Assembly (NCBI GenBank): GCA_900708905.1
Contig: CAADRB010000060.1
Coordinates: forward strand, 532,184-596,183
Reading direction: 5' to 3'
DNA: 64,000 bases
Origin: Hymenolepis diminuta
Taxonomy: Eukaryota; Platyhelminthes; Cestoda; Cyclophyllidea; Hymenolepididae
The notes beneath the pieces were generated by a model. It was not told the origin of the DNA. It did not search any database and saw only the letters and a program-made list of their open reading frames with translations. Positions 7,471 to 50,476 of this stretch are shown one piece after another. The stretch's first letter is position 1; each line of letters begins with the position of its first letter. The translations under genes and the position numbers were made by a program.

Positions 7471-8703
7471 TTTTTTTCGGATTCAGATAACTTAAATTTA
7501 TAAAATTAGTAACAGTAGATATCGACACTCCTAATAGTAAGGCTTCGGGCAGCGCGTCTACTCGGCCATGAGGAATGTCTGCGGCTGTCTTCATCGTATC
7601 TCTAGATGAGTCAGCTGTATTTAATGCAAACAAAGCATACTACGTTGTTCTGTTTAAATGTTCATTAATACCACTGTTAGCTAATTTGCAGACTGTTGTT
7701 GAAGTAATTATATGAAATATTGCCACACCTGATATGAGGTAGAAGATAACACACTCTCGGATTTCAAATTTTTTGTTGAGTGCTTTGTATCAAAACCGCA
7801 ACCGTCCGCCGGTAATAAAATTTCACTGTGAAACGTCTCATCTATCCCTAAGAGATGACTTGATTGGAGAATTTATCATAGAATTTGTCTGTTTATTTAT
7901 GACTATAAGGATAGAATTTAAGGAAAGAGGTTAGTATTGAAACCGACGTCGACATTGCGGATAACTATCTGACTTGGGGCGTTTTATAAAGCCTAAGACC
8001 TCCAGAAATTGGGCTCTTAAATTCCTGATTGCTCGTAATGCACGTAGAGCAGTGATCTCTAGATCATACTAAAGGATCACCTTTTCTGCAAACAAACAAT
8101 CGCAAATTCTCTTCATCATCTACCCACGTTTAGAGAAGAGAAAATTCGTTGGTTGTTTTATTCATAAAAATTCAGTCAAACTAAAGGTTTCTTTGATATC
8201 TTTACTGATTTGCCTTAGCCATGACCTTGAATAAGCCTTCTGCCTAGTTCTCATTGGTATACTGTTACTCGGAAGAAGTTTTTCTGTAAGAGAACTAGAC
8301 TAAGTCTTCTTCGTTGAAGCTTGGTCAAGGGATGATCTAGAGAAATTCTAGGAGCATTTAAACTGCTCAGCGAGTGTTATCCCAGGATTTACATCCCGTA
8401 GCCTAATAACATTTCCTCTCCTCACTGTCGCTTCAGGCACTTTTAAGTTACCTGCAAGTGATTTTCTTATTTAAATGTTAAATCCTAAGTCCATTTTCCA
8501 CCCAAACACGTAGATGTCCACACTTTTAGGAGTTTGATATCATAAAGCAGTCATAGCAACCTGGCTCTGCCCAGTTGGGGCAGAAAAGTAGGAAGCTGAT
8601 GACCTCACCACTCGCCCGACAGTCCTGCCTGACTCAGCATGGGATGGATGGGAAGATGAGTCAGTCTCCATGTGGTAGTCATTTTGCCGGGGAAAAGAAT
8701 AAG
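7471..8703. other. Intergenic, no gene seen
   Basis: From about 8545 the base composition becomes visibly richer in G and C up to the gap at 8704. No gene or known element is recognised. Confidence 0.5.
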
Positions 8704-8768
8704 NNNNNNNNNNNNNNNNNNNNNNNNNNNNNNNNNNNNNNNNNNNNNNNNNNNNNNNNNNNNNNNNN
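8704..8768. other. Assembly gap (65 Ns)
   Basis: A run of 65 undetermined bases. Four overlapping ORFs on both strands cross it only because N codons are read as X, so they are not evidence of a gene. Both flanks (about 8545-8703 and 8769-8895) look less AT-rich than their surroundings, so the gap may lie inside a repeat that assembled poorly. Confidence 0.95.
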
Positions 8769-11700
8769 GTGGAAGGGGTTTGGGAAAACACATCTGGACA
8801 CGCACGTGCTAGCAAACAAAGATATTTTGATTTGGGAAATGGAAAGAAGCAAACAGGAGAGGGAGGAATTTGTAGCCATATGGCCACTATAGTCAATGGG
8901 TTATAGTTGTCAACAGAACTTTATTGTAATTATCAATTAACTTAATTTTCTATATCGTATTTGAAGAGGATGTCTTTGTAAATCTAACCTTTGGACCTCA
9001 TTTCAGTACCCTTTGGTTTTATTTTATTAGAAGGTTTTAAATAAAAATAGACAGGTTTTGGTTTTAACAAGCGCAAATTTTCCACCGGTTCCACTAGTGA
9101 TCGGGGACAACTTTGCGATTAAAACATTTATCCCTGAAGATATTCGGTCTGGTTTTCAGAGCATTCAGTGGATAATTATTATAATTTCCAGAGTTTCAAG
9201 AAGTAAGGTCTGCATAGCTATGTATTTTTGCAGTCACATGTTTCGCTAACTACTTCAAATTCGTTTGATTCTAAAAGAAAGTAAGCATTTAGAATAAGGT
9301 ACGTTTGAACGATTGGGTGAAGGTGGCAGGCTTATGCTAAATTTTCTTTAAATACTCTTTCTTACCGGGATAATCGACTTATTTTAATTTTATTTTATAT
9401 GGATATACCAAAAAATAATGTTAATAAAGGAGAGAGAAACATGGATTTACACATTCCCTTATCGATTAACCGAATTGTTCTAGAACATTGGAAATTAGGG
9501 AGGGAAGTCTTTAATTTGCTTGCATTACTGCCTGCGTTCTCACAACTGATGGTAGATATGAAAACAATAGACAAAGTATTCTTAATAACAGTATTTTTAA
9601 ATTTCACGTTGAGCGAGTTCTACGATGTTAAATCAGGCAAATTAGTATACTTCTGCTATATTGGTCATTAAAAGGGCTCTGTAACTCTGAAGTTGCGAAT
9701 GGTACCACCACCTCAATCTTTTAAACTTGGTCAGATTAGATTACGCCTTCTTCCACTGAGATCATAAGGAAATGCAAATGAATGCAAACCCTCGCTCTTG
9801 AAAGCTTGCTAATATCACAATATCAACTAGTCTTTAACCGAACCCTTTCAATAATCTCACTGGAAGATGTTTTTAGGAAATCTTGATTTCTTCACTGAAA
9901 TCCTCCAGCTTGCCCTTCTTCCAGTACCCTTGTCAAAATTGTACCTTTGATAGGATAATTGATTCATATGAACTGAATATAATTTCAATGTTTATTTGCC
10001 TTTTTGATGCTAAGTAATAAATTGTGAAACATTTTTGTGAGTATATAATAAACTCCACATAATCCATCTCCTATAACCCTTCCTTGTCAATACTCAACTA
10101 AGTCATTTGAAAAATCAGTAAAATGTCATTATTCTCTGTTTCTAAAGACGAAAATTCAAATGTCAGACTGTGCAATTCTGTTTAATTCATTAAGGTATTA
10201 TCGGGAAAGGGAACTCCGTTTTGGAAGAGGAAAGAGTTCACCTTAAAGGTTATCTCAAGTGTTTTAATTAAAGTTAGCACAAATCTAATTATACTTGACC
10301 TGAAAACTCCGACTAATGGGCGCTTCCTCACGTTCACTCCCCTTTTTGTGGAACTCCTTGAAGGGATTGAACATTGAAGGGGAAGAGTGTTAAAGGCGAC
10401 ACGTGTTTTATGAGAGCACAAATGAGGTCACTGCACCTGCATGAAAAAATCCTCTTTTGAAAGAATATTACTGGACAGATAAAATCAGAAATCTGATAAA
10501 AATCACTCAATATTTGATTACTGGGTTACTAAGGCGGTGGATTTCGTCTTAGAGGACATATTTTCAATTTAATAAATACGTGTGCTTATATAACTTCTAC
10601 CCATTTGGAAGCATCCGGAAGCATAGGAAGGGGAAGATAGTTCAGTTTTAAGAGAGAAAATGAGTAATTGGCGCGAGAATCGGAGGTTCAGGAAAGTCCC
10701 ATGTCATCTGAACTCCAGAATCATCGGGTTAATGTTTTTTTTTTAAATTGAAATTTAATCAGGCTTTCCACATTTCCTAATCTTCCCCCTTATATGGAAA
10801 ATTCGACTTCTATAAGATTTCGTTGCAATTCTTTTCACAAATCTTCTGTAGCCCCTATCTACCAGACAAAGAAGTCTACCAAATGGCTGATCATATTTGG
10901 ATTTGTGGTGAACGATCCGCTTGTCTCTTCTCATCTCGCTTTCATTTACAATGAGTTGATGATATCGCAAGTTTGCACACATCATTTTTCCTTTATGTAT
11001 ACCTTCTAGTTGTGGTTAAAGTTTCATAATACCAGAAATAGATTTCTTTGCTGGAATCAGCATTCAAATTTCGGAATCTTTCTGTGAAGCAAGGCAGGGT
11101 ATCAAGCTTTAGTGAACCATCCTTCTGGTATTCCGAAAACCTAGATTAATCTTTCGTTAATCCCACTCAATCGAGACACACATTCAGGGAGGAACTCTGT
11201 TGCATTGTATGCTGAAGACCGACTAGTTGATTAGGCCATTTTGACAAAGTGTGTTTTTCGTATAATTATTTTTCTTCATAAATAAATGAAAAACAAAATA
11301 ACTCCATAATGAGTCCCAGAGGTAGACTTCTAACAAATGTACTATTTATATCGACAGTTGAGGACCTTGAGCTGTCAAGGGAAATTGGATAGGAAATATT
11401 AATTTTTGATGAGCTTTTCAAAATTAAATTTGGTAAAAAATTTAATTTTCTTTTCGCTTTACAAATAAAATTATTCTTTCGAAGGCCAATTTTTGTAACA
11501 AAAATTTTGGTCGTTTATTCTTGATGACTGACAGAAAAAGTTTGGACCATTTGTGTTTAATGGCATGGTGGGATGCTGATTGATCCAAATACTTAAATTT
11601 AAATAAAAAATTTAGTTTAAATTCAACCAAAACTAGTATTTTGTTATTATTATCACAGTAATAAAAATAATTTAAAAACTAAACACATATTTTCATTTTA

Positions 11701-29238: not shown

Positions 29239-32200
29239 ATGGCACGTGCTTCTCGTGGTTCAAAATCTTCTAAGACTCCCAAAACCCCAGCAAAAGGTAA
29301 AACCGATCTCTCTGCAGAAGAACATCCAGTTGAATCAAGAAGGAGGTCTCTTCGATCGGGTGCAAAGGCGCCATCTCCAACTTCCTCAAAAACACCAGAT
29401 CCAGCACCCGCACCTAAGTCTCCAGTTGCAACTCGTTCATCCGGAAGGCGTCTTTCACTTTCCAATAAACATCAGGAAGATCAGAAAGCCGCCAGTCCTC
29501 AGGTAGAAAAAGGTGTAAAACGACGTCGAACTGCGGCTAGTACTTCACTTAGTCCTGAACTGTCCCCAAAAGCCACTAGTTCAACCTCAGCATCTGTTCG
29601 AAAAAGACGAGGTGTTCAAATGGAATCTCCTACTATCTTGACATCTCCTCCTCCAATTCCTGCTACTAAAAGGGCCAAAGTTGCCTCTCCAGTTCCAGCA
29701 GGTTGGTTCCTTTTCTATGCAAATCTGCTGTTCAGAGTTATATAAACGATATTTCTAAACTTCTCTTCCTCTCTAAATTTAGCCGTATCTTCTCTGGTAC
29801 ATTCAAATACACCGAAAACTAGATCAACTGCTGGGATGAGACGCCGACATCGGCAGAAATCCCCTTCAGAATCTGAAGCCAATCAAAGCGAACAGGAAGA
29901 GGATAAAAAGAGTACACCTTCTCAAAGCAGTAAGGGCTCAAGTCAACAGAGACGTGGGGTCAAGAGGAGTCGAAAAGCCTCCATAAAAAGCCCCTCCCCA
30001 GTTGTAGAGGCGAAGAAACCAGTTGTATTATCAAAAAGCAAGTCAATACCCTCAGGGAGTCAATCATCAAAGGCCAAAAAGGAAGAAATGGTGATGGAGG
30101 TTAATCTGGATTCGGAAAATGGAGGTAAGGAGGATAAGAAGGGGAAATCGCCAGTCAAAAACGAATTTGTAAAGTTAAAGAAACGTGAACCGATTAAGCC
30201 TTCTTTGACCAAAAAGGAACTTGAAGCATTGCAACGCAAGCTACTCTTTTCGCGCCTCGATCATGACGATCTTTCTGACCTGATAAGCATCTCTGATCGT
30301 AAGTATCCTTATTCAAGCTTCTAGGAAATGGCCTTTATTGCAATCACACTTCGTTTCATGATAATAATTGTTCAAATTTCAGAAATTTTGTTTTCCATGC
30401 TGTTTTCTTTTGAGGAGGTGAAGGAGGTGTCTGTGTACTTTTGATACGCTCTTGCAAGTTTGGACTTGATTTCTCTCTCCAGCTTTATTTTTTCACCCCA
30501 ACCTCCTTCCCCTCCTCCCCTTATATGATCATGTCCTTAATTCAGGCTTATTCATTTTTTGAAAATCGCGCTTATTGGATTTGTCCACTAAAACAAGTAC
30601 TCTCTTGTTTGTTTTAGTGTTATCTAAATGGCCAGAAGCGGAATTGCGTAATCCAGTGACAGATTCGTCTGTATTACAGGTAATTCCAGCTTCTCATCGA
30701 CTTTGGATTTCTGGGGAAACAAATCCATTGATTGTGAATGGAGATAGTCATGATGGTCAGGTTGCCTTGGCTACGAAGCAATCTACAGAATTGGAAGCGC
30801 CGAGAGCGAAACGAGCTCGACGAAATACTTCACCGGAAAGTAATGGGGGAAGTGAATGTGGGGAATTACAGAAATGCAAAGTTTCGGATGTGGAGGTGAT
30901 TTCCGAAATTGAACAGCATCCAAGACTGTTGGACACCTTCTGTGTTGCATCCTTCACAATTTCTCCCTCAAAGGGTGAGTTCTTGGTTCCGCATTTATAA
31001 CGTTTATCTACCTGAATTCTACACCATCTTTTTTATATTTATCCTCGTGTCGTCTGCTTAGAACTTGCTCAATTTCTGTCCATTAACAGTTCAAATATAT
31101 TTTGAATTAAACTGAATCATTTGCTGTTAGATGTCAGTAGCTCACTAATCGAGTGCAATGGGGGTCATTTTCATCTACAGAAAATCACTGAAGTATGGTC
31201 TATCAACAATATCTGAAGGAGAGTTTATTGAGTCTTGAATTTTCCGTCCATAGAGATCTAACATGAAGTTGGTCTAAAAGATGTTCTGATGAGTATAGTT
31301 CTATTGAGAAACTCGCATCCTGCCATCTCTCGATTGGCCATTATTATCTAATGTGATTAATCCTTGGATGTGCGCTGATAAGTTTCGAATCTGTGGAGTC
31401 GTCTGACTTAGCAGACATGCCCATTGACTGCTACGTCAACAGCACATCGACGGTGTGTCGTTGATGTGTGCCTATCTTGCTAAATGTAATTAGCTCAAAT
31501 TCTAACGCCTCACATTCATTCTATAAATTGGTGTCCCTTATTTGTGAATGAGGGTACCCAGAAGCATGGTTTAACCTTTCTTAGCTAAATAATTGAGTAC
31601 AAGGACAGTGTGTTTTGGGGTTTCCAGTTTACAGTGTGATTGATAAGTAACTTCTTTGAAAGATCTCCGGACATTCAGATTATCGACACACTTTGAAGTT
31701 CGGAAAACATTTTCCGAGTAAAAAGATTTTGACGGTTCATTGTAGAGACAGACTCAGGAACTGCCACGTAAAACTTGGCTATCGGTTCTTTAATAGAACT
31801 CCGAGTAATCTAAGAAAATGTAGACGAAGCTGCTTATGTACCAACCCCATTGTGCATGTTTTGATGCTCTTCCAATGGAAGTACGTACACTTATAGGATG
31901 GGGTGGCTTCCCCCGTCCTATCTTCATGGTTGAAGAGCAGTGAATTAGTATAAATTACTATTAACAGCTAGACAGACGAAGGCGTCTTAGCTCGAGGTAA
32001 GTGGTCTAAGACATTTCTTTCTCTAGTGGTTACCCATTAACCCTCTTTGAATCATATTGTGAGTATTCTAAATCTCATCTTTTCGGGGCATATTTTATTT
32101 TGCTTATACCTTGATTCAGAATCTTTAAGAGTTTTCCCACGTTGTCTAATAGACAATAAACCGACACATTAAAATTTGCATCGATGACCCTTTGCTCACG

Positions 32201-35200
32201 TGTAGCTATCTTGCTGGACGTCATCAGCTCAAACCCATTCTATAAATTAATCTTCTTCATTGGTAAATAGGAGTATGCAGAAGCATAATTTAATGAACTT
32301 TTAATGCATATTGAAAGGCATACGTGGTGAAAGAGTTTTAGAGTCACCAATATCTGGGGCACGGTATGAAGTTCGGAAAGATGCTGTGGATCATCGGTCG
32401 ATTGAAAACCCCTCATTAACCTAAGGCTGCGGTTCTATAATAGGCCTCAATTGATTTGGGAAACTGATTTACATTTGTTTTTGAATATAGGGAGTCACTT
32501 CTCAATCACTCAGTATATATCTAATAGTTTTAATGCTATCTATTCTATTTTATGCCATGATCATAAAATAATACAGATGATGGTGAGACTGGGTTAGATA
32601 AAAATGTGCCAAAGGGTCGAGATTTAGTATGTAATCATTTGGCATTTTCTGTCATTCCTCTGACTTGTCCCTATTTCTAGTTTAAGCGAACGCATTTATA
32701 TAATTGGGAAATTTTATAATATACGAGATTATTTTATGTTGTTAAATGGCAGGAGTTTGAATCCCTTCAGTAAAATATTCACCAACTGAAAACTAACTCA
32801 AAGCCAGTCATCAAATCTATCATTAATGAAAAGCTTGGTTAACTTGGGTTAGGATTTAATGTTGAATGCTGCTGAATAAGGTGGAGGTGGATGTTGTTTT
32901 ACATGGAGTAAGGTGAGCATTCATATGCATTTTGTAATTACTTTCATCAACAACTCTTTATAATGGTCGAAGAATTCTTACTTCTGGAGTCTCACGAGTT
33001 TACAGGAGATCCGCCTTTACTGCAGAGGATCTTCGATTAGTCAAACTTAAGAATCTCTCACATCGATGTAAGCCGTCTATAACATTTTCCTTCTCGAGCA
33101 TGAACTGTATATTGTGCGTTACAAATCTCGCTGTGATTATTTTCACGTTTTCCGGTAGACGACTTCATTTTTGCTATTCACCTCAATACAAAGTTCCCAC
33201 TTCACCCTTTAACAATCAATACCATTTCGAATCTGTTTTGTTATTTGCACCTCTTTAATTTCAAACCTGATGACCTGAAAAGGGCGAATGTACTTAATAG
33301 GAATTTTTTGTCGAACTTTCTGCCGTCTTCAATTGATATCATTTAAAAAGGGGATTTACAGATTAACCGAATGGAATACAATCTATGTATTTGTTCTTCA
33401 CAAAGATATCGTTATATCTTTTTACAGATTTAATCTTTTCAAAGATCAATGAAGCATTTTATCAACGCCAGAATTCACCCCTAACATATTTTTTTCTTAT
33501 GTTCTTATTTATAGGTGACGTGGATGAAGACTTGGAGAGCGAGTTCAGTCAGCTTCTGGGAGAGATCACGGCCATTATTCCAGACATCTTTTGTATCAAA
33601 CAGATGCCGGGCTCTTCTGCGGTCACATATTTGAAGTCCGAAATCGACAGGTTGGCTTTATTTGCTTTTATTCTTTACATTCCACACACTTTACATTCAC
33701 TGTATATGATTTCATATTAAAATAAGCAAAGTTGTGTATGCTAAACTTCATTCCGCTTTATGCCTGAGGAAAAATCGGTGTCTCAGAAGATATTAATTTA
33801 AGCGCTTAGGTTTCTTAAGCTTGACTAACATTGCTGTTGAATATACTTCCCAAATTAATGTTATAGAGAGCCTGAATAGGTCCACACTCTATCCAACGAG
33901 CTCTGTGTATGCATTACCATTTTATTTAAATATTTGTTTTCGCATGTTACCCTAGTCAAAATAACATTCTAATAAGTAGTCTTTGTTAATTATTAGTATG
34001 ATATTTCGATTTTCCGACTTAAGCAATAGAACACAGTACTCACCATGGTAAATGATTGTATAGAGCATTAATAAAACTATTGCTGTCTTAGAGTCCTTTC
34101 GTTGAAAAAATAAAGATAATCACGATGGGCAATGTTTGAGTATTCTTTAAGATAAGTTTCTGTTCAAAATAATGATCGGTTATTGTTTGAATCAAAAGTA
34201 CGAGGTAAAGAAAGATTCTTTGCTGAAAATATCACATTTACTCTTGGGATGGAATATTGGTGAATTTCCGTGCTAATACAGCCAAAGTGGTTTGGAATTC
34301 AGTCTTGAGGTCTGTGAGTTTGATATTTCACTAGATTTCACTGATTTTCATCAGTAGGGGTTCCATCTGTTTGTATTTTTTTCAATTGTACGTTTTAAAA
34401 ATCAGTCTTTGTATCTTCTATTTCACACTTTTGTACCCTTTAGACATATTCTTTATCTACTTCCGTTTTTGCACATTTTCGCCCCTTTTTTGAGCGCACG
34501 GTTTGGTCTCTTTTATAGTTCCTCATTCTTCAATGTCATTTTTTTACAAATGAAATCGAGGGTTCCATGTCATACTCCCCTTATTAAGTCAAATGATGGT
34601 CTATTCAAGTTAATCTGTGAGAATAATGGAAAGGTCGTTGATTTACCGTTGAAATATGTATCGCATTTTTAACTTTCGGGTTTATTGAACTGCGGTAGGC
34701 AAATAGTTTTACTATTAATATCGCTCAGCATGCATTTCTTATTATCTGAGATATTTTCTAAGAAGCAAAATAAATTGACTGTTTAATATAGACAGATAAA
34801 GAGTTAATTTACGGGATCGGCTATTTCCTTTGAATTTCTCATTAACTTGATGATGTCGGCTAAAATTTATTGTGCTCAATTTTCGGAGTACCCTCATCAA
34901 GGTCGAGTGTAGGTTTTCGCACAAAATTTTTTCTCCATATATTCTCTCATTTAATCGATGACCTTTGACCTTTTAGTCATGGCTATCAATGCTCCGGGTG
35001 CAGCAGCACGGATGGAGCAGTGCAGTCTTTCATCTTCTTCAACCGTGATGTCTTCACTGAAGTTTCCACTCATCGACGTTCAGTCCAGTCCATGGCTCGT
35101 AATGTAAATCTCTACTTAACTGTATAAGTAGTATACACGTACTTTATTCAAACCCGTGCCTATTTTCACATAAATCAGTCAAACTAGGCTAGATAATAAT

Positions 35201-38200
35201 TAGATCTACCACTTTAGTATAATGATCCATTACTACTATTCTGCTTAAAATAGAAAAGTAGTATATTTATTAATTGGGTCAGAATCTCAAACCGATGCAG
35301 ATTGAATGAAGTGATACTTAGCTTTTAAGTTAAAAATTTATTCCCTAAACAGGTGTACTTCCTGTTTGTTTTATATTTTGTGAACATTAATTCTAAGTTT
35401 ATATGATAATTAAGGCCTTTTTACGCATTGGATACCATCCAAATATTAATGTAATCCAGTAAATGGCGAAAGAGGGGGAGGGGGGGGGGTCGACTAGGAA
35501 CATACACTGAAGCTAGCATGTCGAGTCTTACTTGATTTGAATTTAAGAAGTGTTGATTTGAGGTATAATTCAATTCATAGTGTACAATTGGTTCACAGTT
35601 CAGTTTTGGTTATTTTATTTCTGATTCTGAGTGAGTTAATACACTATATTTAAACATTGTTTTCATGCCACTTTCATTCATTTGTACTTTCATGCAGCCA
35701 TTAGCAGGTATTTTAGGCCGGGAGGAGTGATTTTAACACTACATGGTTCACTCAAGATGAATTCGGAATAATCAGTTGCATTTCATATTAAGATATGAAT
35801 TAGAAAGGGAGGTGTGTTGCTTTAAAGTTGGAGGAGAGTGAAATTTGAAGATTTTGGCTTGGTAAGAGAGGTTTCTTTTGATCTTCAGCAGAGATGGATA
35901 GTGTTAAGGCCTTCTGGGATAGAAGCTTAGCTCTGGTAGCTCTTGAATGGGAGATTGCTAAACAAAGGCTCAGCATTTATTTACTATTATGTTACCACAT
36001 ATTTCGCATGTCGGTTCTAATTCGTTTGACAGCAGAAGCAAGCGTACATCTTGAGCTGCACATGCTTAAGAGACTGGTGGTGGCGCCACTCTTATCTTCA
36101 TTGCTATAGAGCTGTTTTTTGTATAAGCTAGAATTTGCAACTAGTAAAAATTAGATTAACTTTGAGTTTTGAATATGCCAATTCCACCTCCACAACATAG
36201 TAGCGGTTACTTGTTGCTAGTTATTTTTTTTCATATTTGCCATATCTAAGTTAGAACTGTAATGAAGCAGTAGAAAGCCCGTCTGTTTGATCACACTAAT
36301 CGATCAAAATTTGTCTTAAATGATCAAATTATGTAACGGTTAAATATTCGTTAATGTGTTTGGTTTCTGAGCTTCTGTTCTTATTTGACGGTTAATGGTA
36401 AGTACCAGTGATAAGGGTGTATTGTTCCTCATTTTCGAACATTTTTATGCCGTTTAAATGCTCAATAAATGGTAACATTATACATTCTGAACCATTTCAA
36501 TAAGTGGATTCTATTGCTACTAGTAATGAGCAGGTTAATCGAAATTCTGACTCAAAACTGGTTTTATCACAAACCTTAGTTACTGACATCATTTCAGTAA
36601 CACTCTGTTTTCGTTTACAGTTAGTGGAACAGAGTGCTTATCCTCAACTATGGCGTGATACGTTACTTAAATCACTTGCACCAATCACAGGATCCGGTGA
36701 TATCAGTAACCCATCACAGCTATTGGTTTCGGTATTACGTCATATCTCTACTGGATCCCTTTTACTCTTTGGCTGTCTCGCAGATCGTCTTCAAAATGAA
36801 AATGGAGGTATCTTCCACACGTCGGTACTACAAGATAAAAGTACAATCACAAATATCACCATTCCATATGTCGAGGGTGGTTCTGCCAGCAGTTGTACCC
36901 CAACGATTACAGTCTCCATCGCTGGATGTCATTCCCCTAAAAGTGTCAGCCCCGCTGATGCTTTAGGTTGCGAATGGTGTCCACGTACTCTAGGTTCAAG
37001 ACCCGATTTGGCTGCCATAGACGCCACAGGCTGTATGTGGGCTTTGAAGGACGTGTGGGATGAAGTTCAGGAATCCGTCCAATCACTCGTGAATGGTGGA
37101 TTCAATGGACATTCATCCATACCCACTATGAGATGGGTGCTCTGTGCGAATTTGGAGGCTTCGCCTACTTCACCAGTGTATCAAATCCTGAGAGATGGCT
37201 ATCCTTCAGATGAGAGTATCACACGGTTAAGAGCCATGCGCAATGTTCATCTTAAAGATAATGACTTCTTTGACGCTACGGTAAGTATTCTCGTTGATTT
37301 AAACTTTGTATTGCCAATTTAACAATAGAATCAGTTGCATTTTTTTCGATGATACAATTTGGACAATTAATTGATATAGAACGGCGTGCGGTTTTAATAT
37401 TGCACTCATGAAAATTAAGGACTTCTCTATAGCTGCAGTCGTAATCGGTCTTACTCTGACCTTAGGCCCTTTGAGTTGAGATGTCTGAGGGTATTTAATT
37501 CAGTTGAGATTACTTTTTCAGGTCGTTTAATAATAATTAACGCTATATTCGGTTTCAACAACTGTAGCTTGCATTGATGGGTACTTTTGAAATTTCATAT
37601 CTCACATGTCAATTATAATTTGTACCATAGATGAAGAAAGCGTTCACTCACAGCTGCACAAATTTATAAGGTTAGAGAGTTGATTTATGATCCCTGTTTT
37701 TTGTTAGAAAAATGACGATTCACATGCCTAGGTGAATATTAGAGGAAGTTCTTTGTAGATGGTTTAAATAATCGAGAGAATAATAGTAAGTTTGACCTTT
37801 TTGGCATTGAGTTTATTAGGCTTCTAATTAGAGTTTAGAATACCAAGTGTTTGGATTATCATGTTTTCCTACCAAGTCGGAGGTCCACTGAGTACAATGC
37901 AGTGTATTTTCGTTTTCCAAGATGAGTGCTGAAAATTCTTTCTGTCAATGGTCAATTGTTAAATGTATAGGCCGGTAATAATTTTCTCTATAATTGTTTC
38001 TAATTAGTTATGTCAAGTTATTTTTAATATTTGATTGTCACGTAGAAATTGCTTTCCATCTTATTTGCTCTTACATGTGCTGTAAAAACGATGGACAAAT
38101 GGGGCCTATGGGAGAAAGTTTGTGGCCGATTTCTTAATCCCTTCAAACTGATCTTTACAATTCTATTCTTTTCACATCTATTGGGCTTGTAGAATTTGCC

Positions 38201-39270
38201 GTTAGTGGAAAAATAATGGTTAATATATCTACCTATAAATCATAATTTGGGGTATCTTTATTTTGCAACGGAATCTATTTGCCAATTTTCTAATACTGCT
38301 CGATTTGAAAATTGAACGAGTAGTGTCCTGTTCACACTTCCCTTGTCATCCTAAAGGACCCATAATAAAGTTTGTTAAATTAACTCTTCATTCGAGTTTT
38401 AAATTATCAAAATAATGGACTTATCAGCATGTTGGAATTTAATTTGCTGTATTTGTACGCTATGATTAGGTTTTGCATTTAAAACTCCGCGTGGATAATA
38501 ATAATTGATTGTCAGTTTGCTTTGTGCATTTTCCTTCAATAGGTTTTTCAAATTCTTTGAAGGCGTCCAGGAAATGTCAGATTCTTTTTTTTCCATTACC
38601 ATATCATCTATCATAAAACATGTTTTTAAACATAGGGATTATTTTATTGACCCTTTTCAATCAGAAGTGCTACATATTTTCAACGCGTTCGATGTTTTGT
38701 GAGAATGTTTTGATCTCCATTAATAACATTTAACTGATTAGGTAATTGTCTTGAGATAGTGCACTCCTGCCTTCCTACTTAGTTCTGCTGGGTCTAAGGG
38801 AATTGCTAATTATTACATCAGAGACAGTTTAGATTCATACCAATAAGAATGTAAGGCTAATTCACCTAACTTTGTGTTTATAGACGCTTTTGGATCGACT
38901 ATGGCATGCTTTCCAACACACCTGTACAGACGTTTGTAGTTGCTACCAATCAGTCATGGGTATTGAGCCACCTTTCACTAGATACACCACGGCGACACCC
39001 TCCCTAGGTGGTTCTAACAAAACAACAACAACCACAACTTGTGTAGAGCCTCAAAAGTGCTTGGACTACATATTCTGCTCCGGATCCAGCCTTCACCCCC
39101 GTCAGGTTCTTATCCCACCCTGTCGGGCCACCCTTGGATCGATCGACCCCTCTAAATCCTCCTCAGCTCAAGGTCGTGAAGTTGTTTTTTCGCTGGCCTC
39201 AAAAATTGGAATTGTTGAAATAAACCCTGAGTCCTCCTTATTTGTGAAACCGATATCGGTGTCGTCGTAG
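29239..39270 (+). CDS. EEP-fold (CCR4/Angel/PDE12-like) protein with basic N-terminal tail, probably catalytically inactive (7 exons)
   Basis: Exons 29239-29701, 29783-30298, 30618-30974, 33515-33650, 34977-35103, 36621-37280 and 38884-39270 all have GT-AG introns and join in frame to 881 aa. Residues 1 to about 330 are rich in Ser, Pro, Lys and Arg with SP/TP and KRRR/RRR clusters, suggesting a nuclear, phosphorylatable tail. About 430-880 follow the EEP deadenylase/2'-phosphodiesterase order: FCVASFT (434-440), PDIFCIKQM (468-476), SHGYQCSG, SLLLFGCLADRL, WVLCANLEASPTSPVY (705-720) and CLDYIFCSG (812-820). Known enzymes have YN, QE, a THL-type His, GDFNS and SDH here; this protein has FT, KQ, Ala, ANLEAS and no SDH. 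It may therefore bind RNA or protein without cutting. Orthology within the EEP group is not resolved. The intron between exons 3 and 4 (2.5 kb) holds a duplicated segment. Confidence 0.72.
31465..31715 (+). repeat. Intronic direct repeat, unit 1
   Basis: Shares with 32199-32390 the ordered blocks CTATCTTGCT, CATTCTATAAATT, CAGAAGCAT and TGAAGTTCGGAAA. Lies in intron 3 of the EEP gene. Confidence 0.5.
31893..31921 (+). other. Short intronic stem-loop
   Basis: ATAGGATGGGG and CCCCCGTCCTAT flank a six-base loop and can pair almost perfectly (with a G-T pair). No function can be inferred. Confidence 0.35.
32199..32390 (+). repeat. Intronic direct repeat, unit 2
   Basis: Shorter, diverged copy of 31465-31715 in the same intron, with the same block order. 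It may be a tandem duplication or two insertions of one element. Confidence 0.5.
35473..35489 (+). repeat. G-rich tract (GGGGG-A-G10)
   Basis: A near-homopolymeric G run in intron 5 of the EEP gene, unusual in this AT-rich window. Five- and ten-base G runs could in principle form a G-quadruplex with nearby G runs. Confidence 0.7.
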
Positions 39271-41948: not shown

Positions 41949-44900
41949 CTATGCCTCTCCGTCAGAGTCATCAGAACGAGGCTCGTTTCCATCTGCTTCA
42001 GGACCCAGACGTCTCCTTTTTGCGCGTCTGGCCTCCAGTTGCTTCTGTCTCTTGTCATTCAGGCGAAGAACCTGTAGGGAAGAAAATAAAAAAATATGGG
42101 CAAAATCACAAACAAAAAACTAAGGTTGGTCACGAATGCAGTGCCAGTATGCGCAACAATTAACGTGGCGGTCTGCGAAATCAGAGATCGCGAATTCGAT
42201 GCCTATTGGTAAGCAGAACGGCCAACAGCACTGGTTAAAGTTTGTTTAATAAAGGTGGTGGTGGAATTTTAGTTTCTCACTAAGGAGAGCACTTCTCCAT
42301 CTAAGATAAACAACTTGGGATTTAAATAGCTTCACTTTTATAAAACTTGGAAGACAGAAAACAAAAGTCAGTCTCACTAGAGAAGTACTTTCATTGACAA
42401 AATAAAATAGTTCGGGAACTACAGGAAGCTAAATTTTGGCCTGTTAGCCAACGATACAGCAGTAGCAAATATGTAACCTTACCCATTACTGTGTGGAATC
42501 CGATAATCAATATGTGAATTTTGCTTTCGTATATGAATATAATGATAAAACTCTGACCAAAAATTTTCTCCATCCACTAATTCATGATACTCGGTTAATC
42601 ATCCTGACATATCGAGTAAATACACGAATTGACTGACACCAACCGTGACTGAACACAAATGCCTCAGTTAGGATGAGTGAAATTTCCTTTCCCCATAGAA
42701 TGTGGAAAGCGCAATTTTATATGAAGCCTATCTAATTACAAATAAAAAGTTCACCTTGAGTGAACTCCAGTGGGCTCTGTTGTGTTATGGTTGTGTTAGG
42801 CAGCATCTGCTAGACAGCAGATGTCAAATTATTGCAACTTGCATAGGCTTCGGAATATCTAGAGAGCACTTTGCCCAGTATAATCCCGAAATAGTCTTCA
42901 TTTACATAATAAATAAAAGTGCAAAACGATGGCAGTACATATTAGTATAACTGGGAGTACACATACTGATTTAGCATGAACAGAGGCCTCATCAATCAGT
43001 CTAATAAGCTGTGAATCAGCTCTGGTAGGATCGACCCAAGCCAGTTGGGGGATCTGTGAGCCCAGAACCGACTCGATAATCCGTAGACGAGTGACAGAGT
43101 AGGGAGTGACGAGGGTGATAGCACGTCCAGGCCGACCAGCTCTAGCAGTTCGACCGACACGGTGAATGTAGGACTTGGCTGTCTCACTCCATGATGTCGG
43201 ATTGCCGGGAACATCATAGTTTATTACCAGCTGGACTTCTGGAATATCAAGACCCCTAAAAAGAGAAAGCGATCAGAGCAGATATACTTACATTGTGATG
43301 AAATGTAACGAAGAACAGACTAGCAGTGTTTAGCAGGTTGATTTGGGAAATTGGGTAGCAAGGTTCAATAAAGAAAACTCTGCCTTCAGGATGGTATGAA
43401 GTCTCCCTAGTACCGAGTAATTAGAACTAGGTACCACGAATAACTCGAAGCAAAATTTGCTCAAAATCATGACTAAGAGAATTCAATCACGATCCCAACA
43501 AAGTCTTTGAGTTGACCGAGCTAAAACAGCCAACGTGGAGATATTGGTACAGATCGAATCACCCAAATGTCCATCTCGATGGAAAATCCATACATTAACA
43601 ATAGGCACTTTCTCCTTTGAACGCTTCGAGCAACTTGTCTTTCTACTTCCGATTTCCCGTCTACCCTGGATACGAACATCAATCTGGAGGATGGTTAGCT
43701 TGACATTTCTCATCCAAACTTCTATTTGTGCTTCGGGGAAGGTCATCTGAAGAAGCTTAAAGAAGTGTAACCGAAAGAGCCAAGTTTATCTGAACACTTA
43801 GAGATAACGTGCAGTACAACAATTCGAATCAGAATGAGAAACAGAACCCTGGAAAAAGGGCGCTGCAGGTAGTTAAACATAAGCAGTAACAGACATGGAA
43901 CAAAATACACTCAAAATCGCTCAGAAATTATGTTGAAGAGAATAAGGACTATGGACAATCGAAATAGCATGCAAAAGATTTGAGAGTTCCCATATAAGAT
44001 TTACACTACATGGAAAATTACCTACGTCGTGAAACAATATGGTTATGACTGCTTTTCATTTCAATAATCAGGCAAAAATTTATAAAAATAGAATAAGTTA
44101 AATAAGAATAAAAATGGTTAATTTCAATTTCTTTAACATAGATATTTTACTTAGGCATACAATTCTCTTAAATGACACTGTTTACCAGAAGTGTTAATAA
44201 ATAAATGAGCTGTGATTACCTATACTGAGAGGCCCAAATACTTTAGATTTGGAAATTGAGCTCATGGAATAGAAATTTCAAAAATTTTGTGGTTATAGAA
44301 AATTGTATACAACTACTAACAGCGGAGGTGGAAGGCATGCTATCTTTCGGTCCAAATAGTTTATCTTAATGATTACTATGCAAGTGAATAGTGGACAAAT
44401 AATTCAACAATTTTAAATTATTTCAGGGTCATAACCTGAGGGTAATATTCAGATTGATATTTTGGGCAGAGCAGCGTCATGAAGCCTCACTGTAAGAAAA
44501 AAGTCGAATTTTGTAACACCCTTTGACTGCCAGAATTAATCAGTGCCAATAAGCCCCAAGCAAGGAAACCACTGGAAGTTGATATTATTGTCATTCAGGA
44601 CAAGGCAAAACGATTCAATAAATTTGGGGAGATCCATGATTTGCAGAGCCTATTGGTATATCATATTACTTAATGATTGCCCATACCACCCCAATATTTT
44701 TTATTCTAGTAGCCAAGGGAGGTTTCATTAATAAACATGCTTTAACACAGATAAAACTCACTCGATTTGACCCAACGTGATCTTAAATTATAATGAACCA
44801 ATGTGTGGCATTTATAGCACTTCATTTACTTATCAAGCAGGTTTTCCGAGTACTAAAAGCATTTACTGCAAGCTAGAACTAGGAGCACCTGTTGTTGTGA

Positions 44901-47015
44901 AATAAGACCGGGGCCACCATACATATATAAAAAGGTAAAAGATTCAGTAAGGAAATAAAGGTGTGCGGCATAGTAATTAACGCGATCGGCAACAAAATCA
45001 GAGATCACGGTTCAGTGCCAACCGGTGCACGTCCATTGAGCGGAATGGCAAACCGCAACGATTAAGTCTGATTATTAAAGGGCTGACAGAATTCGAGTTT
45101 GTCTCCAAGACGCCTCAATGATGACACTCCCAAAACCAAGATTAGCAGAAATGCTCCTAGTGGATCGATTCATCTAATATGTTTCAGTGGAACACGAAGC
45201 TTATTCAAGCATGGATAGAAGCTAAAAAAATAAATGAAATTTGCGATTAAGAGTATGACATGACAGGTAAGGGGAGTAAACCAACAGACAAAAGAACGAA
45301 GACTAAATTTACAGAGACATTAGCCAAAATCCTATTGAAATTCCATCGATTACAATAGGAAATCTCTAAATCAGCATACGCAGAGTTGACTAACGCAACT
45401 TCATGTGGATGTTAAAAAGATGTTCGGCGAAAGATGGATGATTTGGATGATTTCTACGAAGAATTATATCAAACGCATTATTAAACAACTCCGATTGACT
45501 GGTGTGAATAGAGAAAGAAAGTATGTGTAGAACCTCAGGATCATCGACTCTTCAGAAGAGAAGGCGAGATCACTCCAAACCCTTAAAAAACATGGGAAAT
45601 CTGATAAAAAGGATGGTTATGAGATCACATTCAAGTTTTTCATTCAGATTCTCAGTGCGAGATATAAGGTAATGAAAAAAAAGTCTAATCAAATTTGGAG
45701 TTGAAAAAAAAAGCAATTGATTACCTTGGAACTTAGATGAATTTTCTTACTTTCAGTCCTACAGCCCCAACTTCTCCTAAAAACTAAACTGTATTCCTCT
45801 TTCAATGTGTTCGGATGTCTTACTATCATTAGAAATTGCAAAACTTTCTGCATTGTCATAGAAAATATAAAAATAAAGATAATTTAATGGTATTACCTTG
45901 AAGCTATATCTGTAGCGACCATAATGTTGGCTTCTCCCGATTTGAATTTTTCCAGAGCACCCACTCGCTTCTCTTGACGCATAGAACCGTTCAAAATAAC
46001 CACTCGATCTTTACTGGTAATGTGCCTCAACATCTCGCCCACGAGTACGGATTCCCTAGATGTAGCAACGAATACAATCGTTCGAGACTCGCTAGTGGTC
46101 TAAAATTTAACATAAATCACTACTTAACTCACTCCCTTCTAAATATTGATTAAAGAAAACTTGTAAACATACACTTCCACCGAGATCGACCAGTAATTTA
46201 GCAACGTAAATATCTTTTCTCTGATCAGGTAGAAATATGAATGCATGATCAAGATTTTCAACGGTTGTGTATTTTGCCGCAGTTTCTAAACGAATCGGCA
46301 TTCGAAGACAAGCTGATTGAACTTTCTCAAGCTAATAAATGCAAAAAAAACAATAAGATTGTGAGATCTTACATTTTTTGACATTGTAGCTGAGAAAAGA
46401 TAATTCCTGCGTTTTTCTGGAAGTCTAGATAATATAACCTGCAATTCAGCGTCAAAATTTCCTCCGAGCATATGGTCAGCTTCATCCAGTACAAAATAAT
46501 GAAGTTTGTGGAGAAAAAGTTCCTTGGTATGCTCAATGTGATGAAGAACCCGACCAGGAGTCCCGATGATTATATGATGTTTGACTTGTTTCAGAGCCCT
46601 TTGCTGATCTTCAACATGCTGTCCACCAACTAAACAGATGACTTTGAGACCAAACTTAGAGCCGAGATCCATAAAATGTTGCCTAATTTGCATCGCAAGT
46701 TCTCGAGTGGGCGTGAGAATTAAAGCATAATTATACCGTGGCTTTATCAAAAGATTCTAAAACATGGATATGATTATGTAATGGGAAACCCTGCCTGGAG
46801 TATTGGTATTGCGAAGGCGACGGTTTTACCGCTACCTGTTTCGGCCAGACCAACTACATCTTTCCCCTTTAAAGCAACGGGAATCACCTTAGACTGAATT
46901 TCCGTTGGCTTTTTCCATCCTAACTCTTGACAAACATCACAAAGTTCTTTGCACACACCCTGAAATCGATTAAATATAAAAAGCGATCACTTACCAAATC
47001 AACAAAAGACGACAT
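41949..47015 (-). CDS. DDX47: DEAD-box ATP-dependent RNA helicase, DDX47/Rrp3-like (7 exons)
   Basis: DDX47/Rrp3 is a nucleolar helicase for early pre-rRNA cleavage and small-subunit assembly. Minus-strand exons: 47015-46995, 46959-46795, 46756-46373, 46331-46173, 46099-45897, 43255-42967 and 42071-41949, joining to 447 aa (human about 455). Motifs are all intact: Q motif GWKKPTEIQ (21-29), AETGSGKT (46-53), PTRELA (78-83), GG (106-107), GTPGR (127-131), DEAD (153-156), SAT (184-186), ATDIASRGLDIP across exons 5-6, and [10 protein letters not shown] (342-351). AETGSGKT and the GW-x-KPT start favour DDX47 over DDX49. The first exon is only 7 codons and the first three introns are 35, 38 and 41 nt. 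Intron 2 must use a GC donor (CAG|GCAGGG). About 10 extra residues (328-337) precede YIHRVGR. The tail is basic then acidic ([16 protein letters not shown]). Divergent from MED19. Confidence 0.9.
42141..42300 (+). mobile_element. tRNA-derived SINE-like element, copy 3
   Basis: Located in the last intron of the DDX47-like gene. Shows ACAATTAACGTGGCGGTCTGCG in the A-box region, AATTCGATGCC at the B-box position, GCAGAACGGCCAACAGCAC, and the tail AATAAAGGTGGTGGTGGAA followed by TTTCTCACTAAGG. The block order equals that of the other copies. Confidence 0.55.
44961..45120 (+). mobile_element. tRNA-derived SINE-like element, copy 4
   Basis: Begins GTGTGCGGCATAGTAATTAA (A-box-like), then AAATCAGAGATCACGGTTCA and GTGCC (B-box-like GGTTCAGTGCC), GCGGAATGGCAAACCGC, and the tail CAGAATTCGAGTTTGTCTCC. 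It lies in intron 5 of the DDX47-like gene and aligns well with 42141-42300. Confidence 0.6.
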
Positions 47016-48935: not shown

Positions 48936-49495
48936 GATATCACAAATTCATTTAATGCTTCACTGTCAATATCCCCAAATAAACATTTTATATGTATTTA
49001 TACGCGTCATAAAAATCTGCTTACCAATTTGATATAATTCAATAATCCTTTGAAATCCAAAGAATGCTTCTTAAAATCCGAATGCCACTTGTTTGGCAAA
49101 ATTTGCCTTTAATTTACAGTCGAAAACTGTACGAAACAACTATGCACGATATATCTTAGCTTCATAATATTGTGGCCCTTTTCTATTATTAGGCTATCAT
49201 ATTTAGAGATACGACCAACTTAGGAAATTCGATATCTCAGCAAAAATTTTAAAAGAAACAGCAACAGTGAAATTTGAAGGGGGGATTTATAAATGTATAA
49301 AATTTTGAAAATCTATAAGATTCTCTATTTTTAGAAATAATTTTTAAACTAAAAAATACAAATTGGAAGACCAATTATATGCAAAAGCTAAAAAACTTAA
49401 CAATTTCGTACGTATAAAATTACAAAATACAAAATAACTAACGCTTTTAATTGTTACTTTATGTCAGCGCGTTTCGCGAGTTTTTATTTTTGGTT
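48936..49495. other. Region upstream of MED19
   Basis: AT-rich, presumably the MED19 promoter and 5' UTR. No clear TATA/Inr pair was identified among the many A/T runs. Confidence 0.4.
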
Positions 49496-50476
49496 ATGTC
49501 TTATGGTGGTGGTTGTACGCCCCAGCAGTCCGGTCAGATGTTCGTGAATAAAATAAAAATTATCAGAACTGGAGGCAATCGTACTGTTAAAAACACATTG
49601 GAACCTTTTTATTTACTTGAACCAGAATGGCCATTAACAGATAATCAAATAACCGGTGCCAAGAATCTAATAGATCACTTTGGTTTAAAAAATGCCTATC
49701 AAAAGTATTTTCGAGGTAATCTAAAGGAGGAACTTTCAGGATTTTTAACTCACCTCTCCGGAAATGTAAATACTCCAGCTTCTACTGATGAAAGCGGATT
49801 AATGCATTTGATTGAACGTCCGCCGATTCAAGGTAATTCTTTTCAAACATTTAATGTCAGCCAGCTCGATTCCGCAGTCAGATTACACCCAGGTCCCCTC
49901 CCGCAAGAATTTATGTCATATTTTGTTGCTCCATCCCCCACACCAAATGCTGCTAGCAACGGTCCATCATCCAACGATACCGGTTCTACTCCTAATGCCA
50001 AAAAGCGCAGAAGAGATGCCCATCGGTCAGGCGTTGGTAATGTCACATCTTCGGATTATGCTCCTACGTCTTCTTTTTCCCACTTCCCCTTGTCGAATCC
50101 CGCGTCAGCCATAATGCGCGGTCAGCAGCAATCATCCATTCATCATGCGTCCAGTCAACATCATCATCCCCCTTCGGCTGCTTCTTCAGTTGCCATGGCA
50201 CCGCATTCTGGACCCCTTATGAATCCTTCTGTGGCTGCGTCTTTATCTTCGGGTGGTAACAAGCCTGCAACTTCTGTAGGTTACTTTGCTACTCCACCAG
50301 TGATGAAGCGACCGCTTGATGATTCCTATAATTCACTGACTCCTAGTGGAATGGCTTCGTCTGTAGAGTCGCCAGGTGGTGGTGGATATGACTTTGATGA
50401 CGAGATTCGGCGCAAAAGGCGGCGAAAGGAGAAGAAGAGTGGTGGGAGCTCAAGCCGAAGAGACAGAATTGATTGA
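49496..50476 (+). CDS. MED19: Mediator complex subunit 19 (single exon)
   Basis: MED19 is a Mediator head/middle-associated subunit linking transcription factors to RNA polymerase II in the nucleus. The conserved core is clear: EPFYLLEPEWPLTDNQITGA (36-55), KNLIDHFGL (56-64), LKEELSGFL (76-84), LIERPPIQGNSF (105-116) and RLHPGPLP (129-136), each matching the metazoan order. After the core come a KKRRRD basic patch, a Ser/His-rich linker (QHHHPP) and a Lys/Arg-rich tail (RRKRRRKEKK), the usual MED19 C-terminal character. At 326 aa it exceeds the human protein (244) through the linker. The ATG at 49496 is chosen because upstream in-frame codons offer only a TTG. It is intronless, unlike its neighbours, and transcribed away from the DDX47-like gene. 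Confidence 0.9.
   Translation: MSYGGGCTPQQSGQMFVNKIKIIRTGGNRTVKNTLEPFYLLEPEWPLTDNQITGAKNLIDHFGLKNAYQKYFRGNLKEELSGFLTHLSGNVNTPASTDESGLMHLIERPPIQGNSFQTFNVSQLDSAVRLHPGPLPQEFMSYFVAPSPTPNAASNGPSSNDTGSTPNAKKRRRDAHRSGVGNVTSSDYAPTSSFSHFPLSNPASAIMRGQQQSSIHHASSQHHHPPSAASSVAMAPHSGPLMNPSVAASLSSGGNKPATSVGYFATPPVMKRPLDDSYNSLTPSGMASSVESPGGGGYDFDDEIRRKRRRKEKKSGGSSSRRDRID

Follow-up and report, generated by a model that had tools for sequence, protein, structure and literature searches.

A tapeworm-conserved protein with the predicted EEP nuclease fold and a replaced active site

Introduction

CCR4-branch proteins of the endonuclease-exonuclease-phosphatase (EEP) fold are usually met as active hydrolases, and a gene of the tapeworm Hymenolepis diminuta raises the question of what such a protein does once its active site has been rewritten. 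The gene lies in a stretch of 64,000 nucleotides (assembly GCA_900708905.1, contig CAADRB010000060.1, positions 532,184 to 596,183 of the forward strand), below called the window, and all coordinates without a contig name count from its first letter. Seven exons on the + strand (29239-39270) encode a predicted protein of 881 residues, of which residues 430-881 (about 450 residues) form the EEP core. We consider it probable that the product is a conserved tapeworm EEP pseudoenzyme of the CCR4 branch, probably a former Angel protein, which would act without catalysis and most likely as a nuclear subunit in RNA processing or deadenylation. That it is catalytically dead in the canonical sense is very likely from the residues described below; a role as nuclear scaffold of an RNA-processing assembly is a tentative suggestion.

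Results

The core resembles CCR4-branch EEP enzymes

A profile of eight orthologous cores was compared with 177,635 PDB sequences, and ANGEL2 ranked first (E 1.5e-6), 12.5 bits ahead of CNOT6L (0.0097) and followed further down by CNOT6 (0.055) and Nocturnin (0.19). When the untrimmed nine-row alignment was used as profile, ANGEL2 was the sole family member matched (0.026). In the profile alignment Gln475 stands opposite the Glu of CLQEV in ANGEL2, and Asn710 and Glu712 opposite the Asp and Asn of GDFNS, in each case ungapped. AlphaFold models of two orthologues likewise matched enzymes of the CCR4/Angel/PDE12/Nocturnin branch first in Foldseek and VIA-align, where the VIA-align lists are a re-examination of the Foldseek matches and not an independent search; the TM-scores over the targets were 0.21-0.44, and the models are confident only within the N-terminal half of the core. 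The core can also be aligned end to end with the worm's own CNOT6 and PDE12. Sequence profile and models together indicate that the core has the EEP fold and belongs to the CCR4/Angel/PDE12/Nocturnin branch, and a chance origin of the resemblance is unlikely because this enzyme family heads the results of the profile search and of both structure searches. In this the original prediction, made from the letters of the window alone, was right to propose an EEP-fold protein, and the structural comparison with CNOT6L and PDE12 that it suggested bears it out over the N-terminal half of the core. Within the branch, CNOT6L/PDE12 or Nocturnin come out slightly ahead of Angel by structural score, whereas the sequence profile favours ANGEL2; an Angel ancestor is favoured by sequence, and structure does not decide.

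A single-copy gene of seven exons

The splice model reproduces exactly the 881-residue product of the original prediction, with all six introns bounded by GT...AG. In the 170.6-Mb assembly of 203 contigs the Rodentolepis nana orthologue gave seven matches, one per exon and none elsewhere, and the DNA of exon 6 matched only itself, showing that the gene is present as a single copy. The interval first assigned to the protein, 30900..39270, covers the EEP part, and the gene itself starts 1.7 kb ahead of it. An additional exon at 35889-35935, giving a model of 895 residues, was dropped as absent from the orthologues, and a catalytic His read from it fell together with it. The features of the gene are as follows.

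29239..29701, + strand: exon 1, start codon and basic Lys/Arg-rich tail (splice model, R. nana match)
29783..30298, + strand: exon 2, remainder of the basic tail and conserved motif TKKELEALQRKLLFSRLDHDDLSDL (splice model, orthologues, R. nana match)
30618..30974, + strand: exon 3, conserved SxRLW motif, linker and first EEP strand; YN replaced by F439/T440 (codons 30953-30958)
33515..33650, + strand: exon 4, DIFCIKQM segment; Glu of LQE replaced by Gln475 (codon 33601-33603)
34977..35103, + strand: exon 5, GYQCSGC...SFIFFNRDVFTEV, EEP strands (splice model, profile alignment, R. nana match)
36621..37280, + strand: exon 6, LLVSVLRH...GCLADR (A587, codon 36780-36782) or IAGCH (His637, codon 36930-36932) as candidates for the NTH strand
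36621..37280, + strand: exon 6, D-x-N site WVLCANLEASPTSPVYQI, with Asp replaced by Asn710 (codon 37149-37151) and Asn by Glu712 (codon 37155-37157)
38884..39270, + strand: exon 7, EPPFTRY (Thr785, Arg786) and CLDYIF with Asp814 kept (codon 39064-39066)
38884..39270, + strand: exon 7, final strand EVVFSLASKIGIV at the former SDH place, then the stop codon

Replacement of the catalytic residues

Ten residues are generally conserved in EEP proteins, in human CCR4 numbering N195, E240, H361, D412, N414, T480, D491, S529, D530 and H531 (PMC8216464). Their equivalents were scored in 11 rows, the window protein and ten orthologues, with N195, E240, D412, N414 and D491 placed by profile and worm-paralogue alignments and the rest by eye. 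Four of the five residues placed by alignment are replaced. At N195 we find Thr in nine rows, Ser in one and a gap in one; the ligand E240 has become Gln (seven rows, among them Gln475 of the window) or Asn (four rows); D412 is Asn in all 11; and N414 is Glu in eight rows and Asp in three. The fifth, D491, is kept as Asp814 in 11/11. Among the residues placed by eye, T480 appears as Thr785 (Thr in 10/11, Ser in 1/11), and the place of S529-D530-H531 reads EVV, ETA, ETV or similar, Val or Ala mostly standing where the His would be; the worm-paralogue alignment does not pair this stretch in that way. For H361 there are two candidate positions. The order of the strands points to A587, a column with Ala in two rows, Thr in eight and Ser in one, and both models put the strands LLVSVLRH and SLLLVGCL side by side; the rival candidate is His637 in IAGCH (see below). 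Whether A587 or His637 is counted, the NTH His is not kept throughout, and if IAGCH is the real NTH strand the His would have been lost stepwise. The Mesocestoides and diphyllobothriid rows do not have His at the place of His637 (codon 36930-36932). Taking together the 18 proteins from our searches, Asn occupies the catalytic Asp position in 17, the eighteenth being without that segment.

The substitutions first named, F439/T440, Q475, A587, N710 and E712, are thus all present in the product, and the loss of Glu, Asp and Asn extends across the 11 rows, all of them cestode where named. The broader claim that every alignable catalytic residue is replaced goes too far, since profile alignment shows Asp814 to be kept, Thr785 seems kept by eye, and one His can be placed in two ways. 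Likewise Ala does stand at 587, the place first given to the His of ANTHL, but His637 competes for it; and the SDH, first called absent, looks replaced, by eye, with an alignable strand after it.

Conservation and distribution

Three protein searches, which require shared five-residue words and in two of which scoring was confined to the best ~8,000 candidates, together yielded 18 proteins. All 12 of those with an organism name are cestodes (Rodentolepis, Anoplocephala, Echinococcus, Taenia twice, Mesocestoides twice, Sparganum, Spirometra twice, Schistocephalus and Hydatigera). No trematode or planarian orthologue was among the 18, although those groups may lie beyond the reach of the searches. 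The label "flatworm-specific" originally proposed therefore gives way to a narrower one: within the scope of the searches, this is a tapeworm-restricted candidate protein, and one without Pfam annotation. Two of the orthologues bear the UniRef label "Histone acetyltransferase"; Pfam finds no acetyltransferase family in any of nine orthologues, and the label, which currently hides the EEP family, is probably a mislabel.

Core identity to the window protein is 80% in R. nana, 52% in Spirometra and 35% in the row farthest from it. Core identity exceeds tail identity in all nine orthologues that have a tail, and 94 of the 452 columns of the core are invariant. Gene predictions of other tapeworms give the same residues. 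In the 11-row tree four of eight inner branches were starred, namely window plus R. nana (support 100/98), those two plus Anoplocephala, the taeniid rows and the diphyllobothriid rows (family names that we presume for these groups); Mesocestoides and one long-branch row were weakly placed. Alignment and tree thus describe a protein that has lost catalytic residues and is conserved in its orthologues. Since these occur in several tapeworm families, the data argue for a maintained pseudoenzyme rather than a decaying gene, as first suggested.

The basic tail and the conserved motif

Residues 1-290 form a Lys/Arg-rich and Ser/Pro/Thr-rich tail with a net charge of +39, 14% ILVFMWY and eight basic clusters (pattern-based). 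Tail and linker diverge fast, and between them a motif at about 295-345 has the consensus TK.EL..LQRR.LL..LDHYDLSD, then a conserved S.R.W; over 291-360 conservation about equals that of the core in close species. The Spirometra model predicts a helix at 327-342, in a block with a predicted local distance difference test (pLDDT) of 53-65.

EEP relatives and the search for Angel

Searches of the genome with PF03372 and with proteins found CNOT6 on contig C81 and PDE12 on C102, and in both of these YN, LQE, D-x-N and SDH are all present. The other relatives are AP endonucleases (C63, C85), a neutral-sphingomyelinase-like exon (C6) and retroelement endonucleases (C3, C86); except for CNOT6, these names are what we take the genes to be from their motifs. 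For a canonical Angel, a DNA pattern for CGDFNS gave 12 genome matches with CNOT6 as the sole EEP exon, the pattern not being exhaustive as it missed PDE12. A 43-residue segment of ANGEL2 matched CNOT6 (E 0.39) and PDE12 (0.70), and one of 67 residues matched CNOT6 (0.0017) and a 22-residue stretch on C110 (0.13), around which simple motif patterns found no further EEP motif in 19.2 kb. By these limited searches a canonical Angel is likely to be absent from the assembly.

Angel2 has been paired with TOE1 (PMC3870282). A search for a Caf1-type partner with PF04857 produced three matches at two sites, and by eye neither site looks like TOE1. One of the two CAF1-type genes seen is an exon-split CNOT7-like gene on C2; the second (C193:354678-355046, - strand) is one uninterrupted frame of 312 residues whose catalytic acids seem kept by eye, possibly a retrocopy-derived paralogue.

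Discussion

How could a protein with this active site be useful to the worm? Because the ligand Glu and Asp are gone, the usual Mg-dependent hydrolysis should not take place. The EEP shell, the conserved motif and the basic tail would instead hold partners together, which could be the reason for their retention, and the Lys/Arg clusters may direct the protein to the nucleus or to nucleic acid, a nuclear location being the most likely one because of these clusters. The product would then be a subunit without catalytic function in an assembly for RNA processing or deadenylation.

Several points weigh against this. The worm's CNOT6 is at least as acidic as the core, so that composition cannot separate RNA from protein binding. 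Both models have a mean pLDDT of about 40 and their C-terminal half, with N710, E712 and D814, is mostly below 50, and the pocket can therefore not be inspected. PF03372, which had been proposed as a check, matched neither the 895-residue model nor any of nine orthologues at E<=10. H361, T480 and SDH were placed by eye, and the worm-paralogue alignment sets neither GCLADR nor FTRY opposite them. IAGCH (633-637) resembles VANTH, and its last residue could be the NTH His in the six rows with His there; one row has Arg at this place, two have Leu and two a gap. Finally, with Asp814 retained and an acid at 712 in every row, the site may still bind a metal.

The last two points lead to the strongest rival, a rewired enzyme in which Asp814, perhaps with Thr785 and in some species His, is kept, the acid has moved to N-x-E/D, and a metal is held for another reaction. 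The invariance of N710, the constant acid at 712, the invariant Asp814 and the six rows with His637 would all fit, and the chemistry of relatives does vary, as ANGEL2 acts on 2',3'-cyclic phosphates (PMC13247085) and Nocturnin on NADP(H) (PMC6542800). However, the Glu ligand is an amide in 11/11 rows, mutants of the catalytic Glu in relatives are inactive (PMC9525292, PMC6542800), and the remaining five rows have Arg, Leu or a gap in place of His637, which makes a rewired enzyme unlikely. Nocturnin, earlier discussed as a possible pseudoenzyme before its substrate was found (PMC6214945, PMC6542800), is a warning for the tapeworm protein too.

Somewhat less probable still is a pseudoenzyme that arose by duplication of CNOT6 or PDE12, to which the core is related by fold. 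The 12.5-bit preference of the profile for ANGEL2 over CNOT6L speaks against such a descent, as does P-x-S-P-x-Y past D-x-N, which in those alignments is common to ANGEL2 and not to CNOT6L, and intact CNOT6 and PDE12 are both in the genome. We give even less credit to a relaxed remnant, an inactive Angel-type gene drifting under weak constraint with only its tail or the motif at 295-345 still in use. Altered catalytic motifs, the fast divergence of tail and linker around a motif conserved about as well as the core in close species, and the failure of limited searches to find a canonical Angel would agree with it, but the core identities and 94 invariant columns given above would not, nor would the conservation of Asn710 itself and of the acid at 712. 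That the protein is not EEP at all, by chance resemblance or a faulty gene model, is hardly credible: the Pfam search without any match, a PF03372 genome search without this locus among the matches listed and a single-sequence PDB search without an EEP-family member among its results are outweighed by the profile and two structure models with the same enzyme family first, and by gene predictions in other tapeworms with the same residues and the R. nana protein on the same exons.

Among known systems, the pseudoenzyme that we prefer is closest to ANGEL2 and Drosophila Angel, its best sequence match, with the same motif order and PxSPxY in common; RPxLxxxGYxC is found in the taeniid and diphyllobothriid rows, where the window has LKSEIDSHGYQC. 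Unlike the tapeworm protein with its replaced Glu, Asp and Asn, Angel is active (PMC13247085, PMC9525292), and the 290-residue basic tail and the structural scores, which do not single out Angel, further set the two apart. With CNOT6/CNOT6L (CCR4) and PDE12 the core shares the EEP fold and differs from this genome's copies in its catalytic motifs. INTS9 and CPSF100 are pseudonucleases with metallo-beta-lactamase folds that serve as scaffolds in RNA processing, each paired with a live paralogue. The tapeworm protein would share with them a dead nuclease fold that selection has retained, probably for the sake of assembly, and differ in that its fold is EEP.

If so, the tapeworm case would be a clean conversion of an enzyme to a scaffold. 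A possible but doubtful extension is that tapeworms gave up catalytic Angel and kept its shell as a nuclear, non-catalytic protein; paired exchanges of acid and amide (E to Q/N, D to N, N to E/D) would have remodelled the metal site, which was then fixed in a class-wide EEP pseudoenzyme. Pseudoenzymes as such are well known; one of the EEP fold that is class-wide and shows this exchange would be new, and neither it nor a tapeworm EEP pseudoenzyme appears in the literature searched (titles and abstract openings, with few subscription journals). ANGEL2, of the CCR4 family, removes 2',3'-cyclic phosphates (PMC13247085), and the question is raised whether tapeworms live without this activity; if the shell was kept and the enzyme lost, such RNA ends would be handled differently in tapeworms. 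Loss of a live Angel would be notable because in flies the knockout is lethal and Angel with a changed catalytic Glu fails to rescue it (PMC9525292).

Neighbouring features of the window

Within 8557-8889 a short stretch translates to unknown residues on both strands, pointing to N bases from a gap or from masking. Downstream of the EEP-like gene, exons on the - strand at 42901-46756 carry PTRELA, DEAD and SAT motifs and presumably belong to a DEAD-box RNA helicase. A long open frame on the + strand at 49451-50473 resembles what we take to be Mediator subunit MED19.
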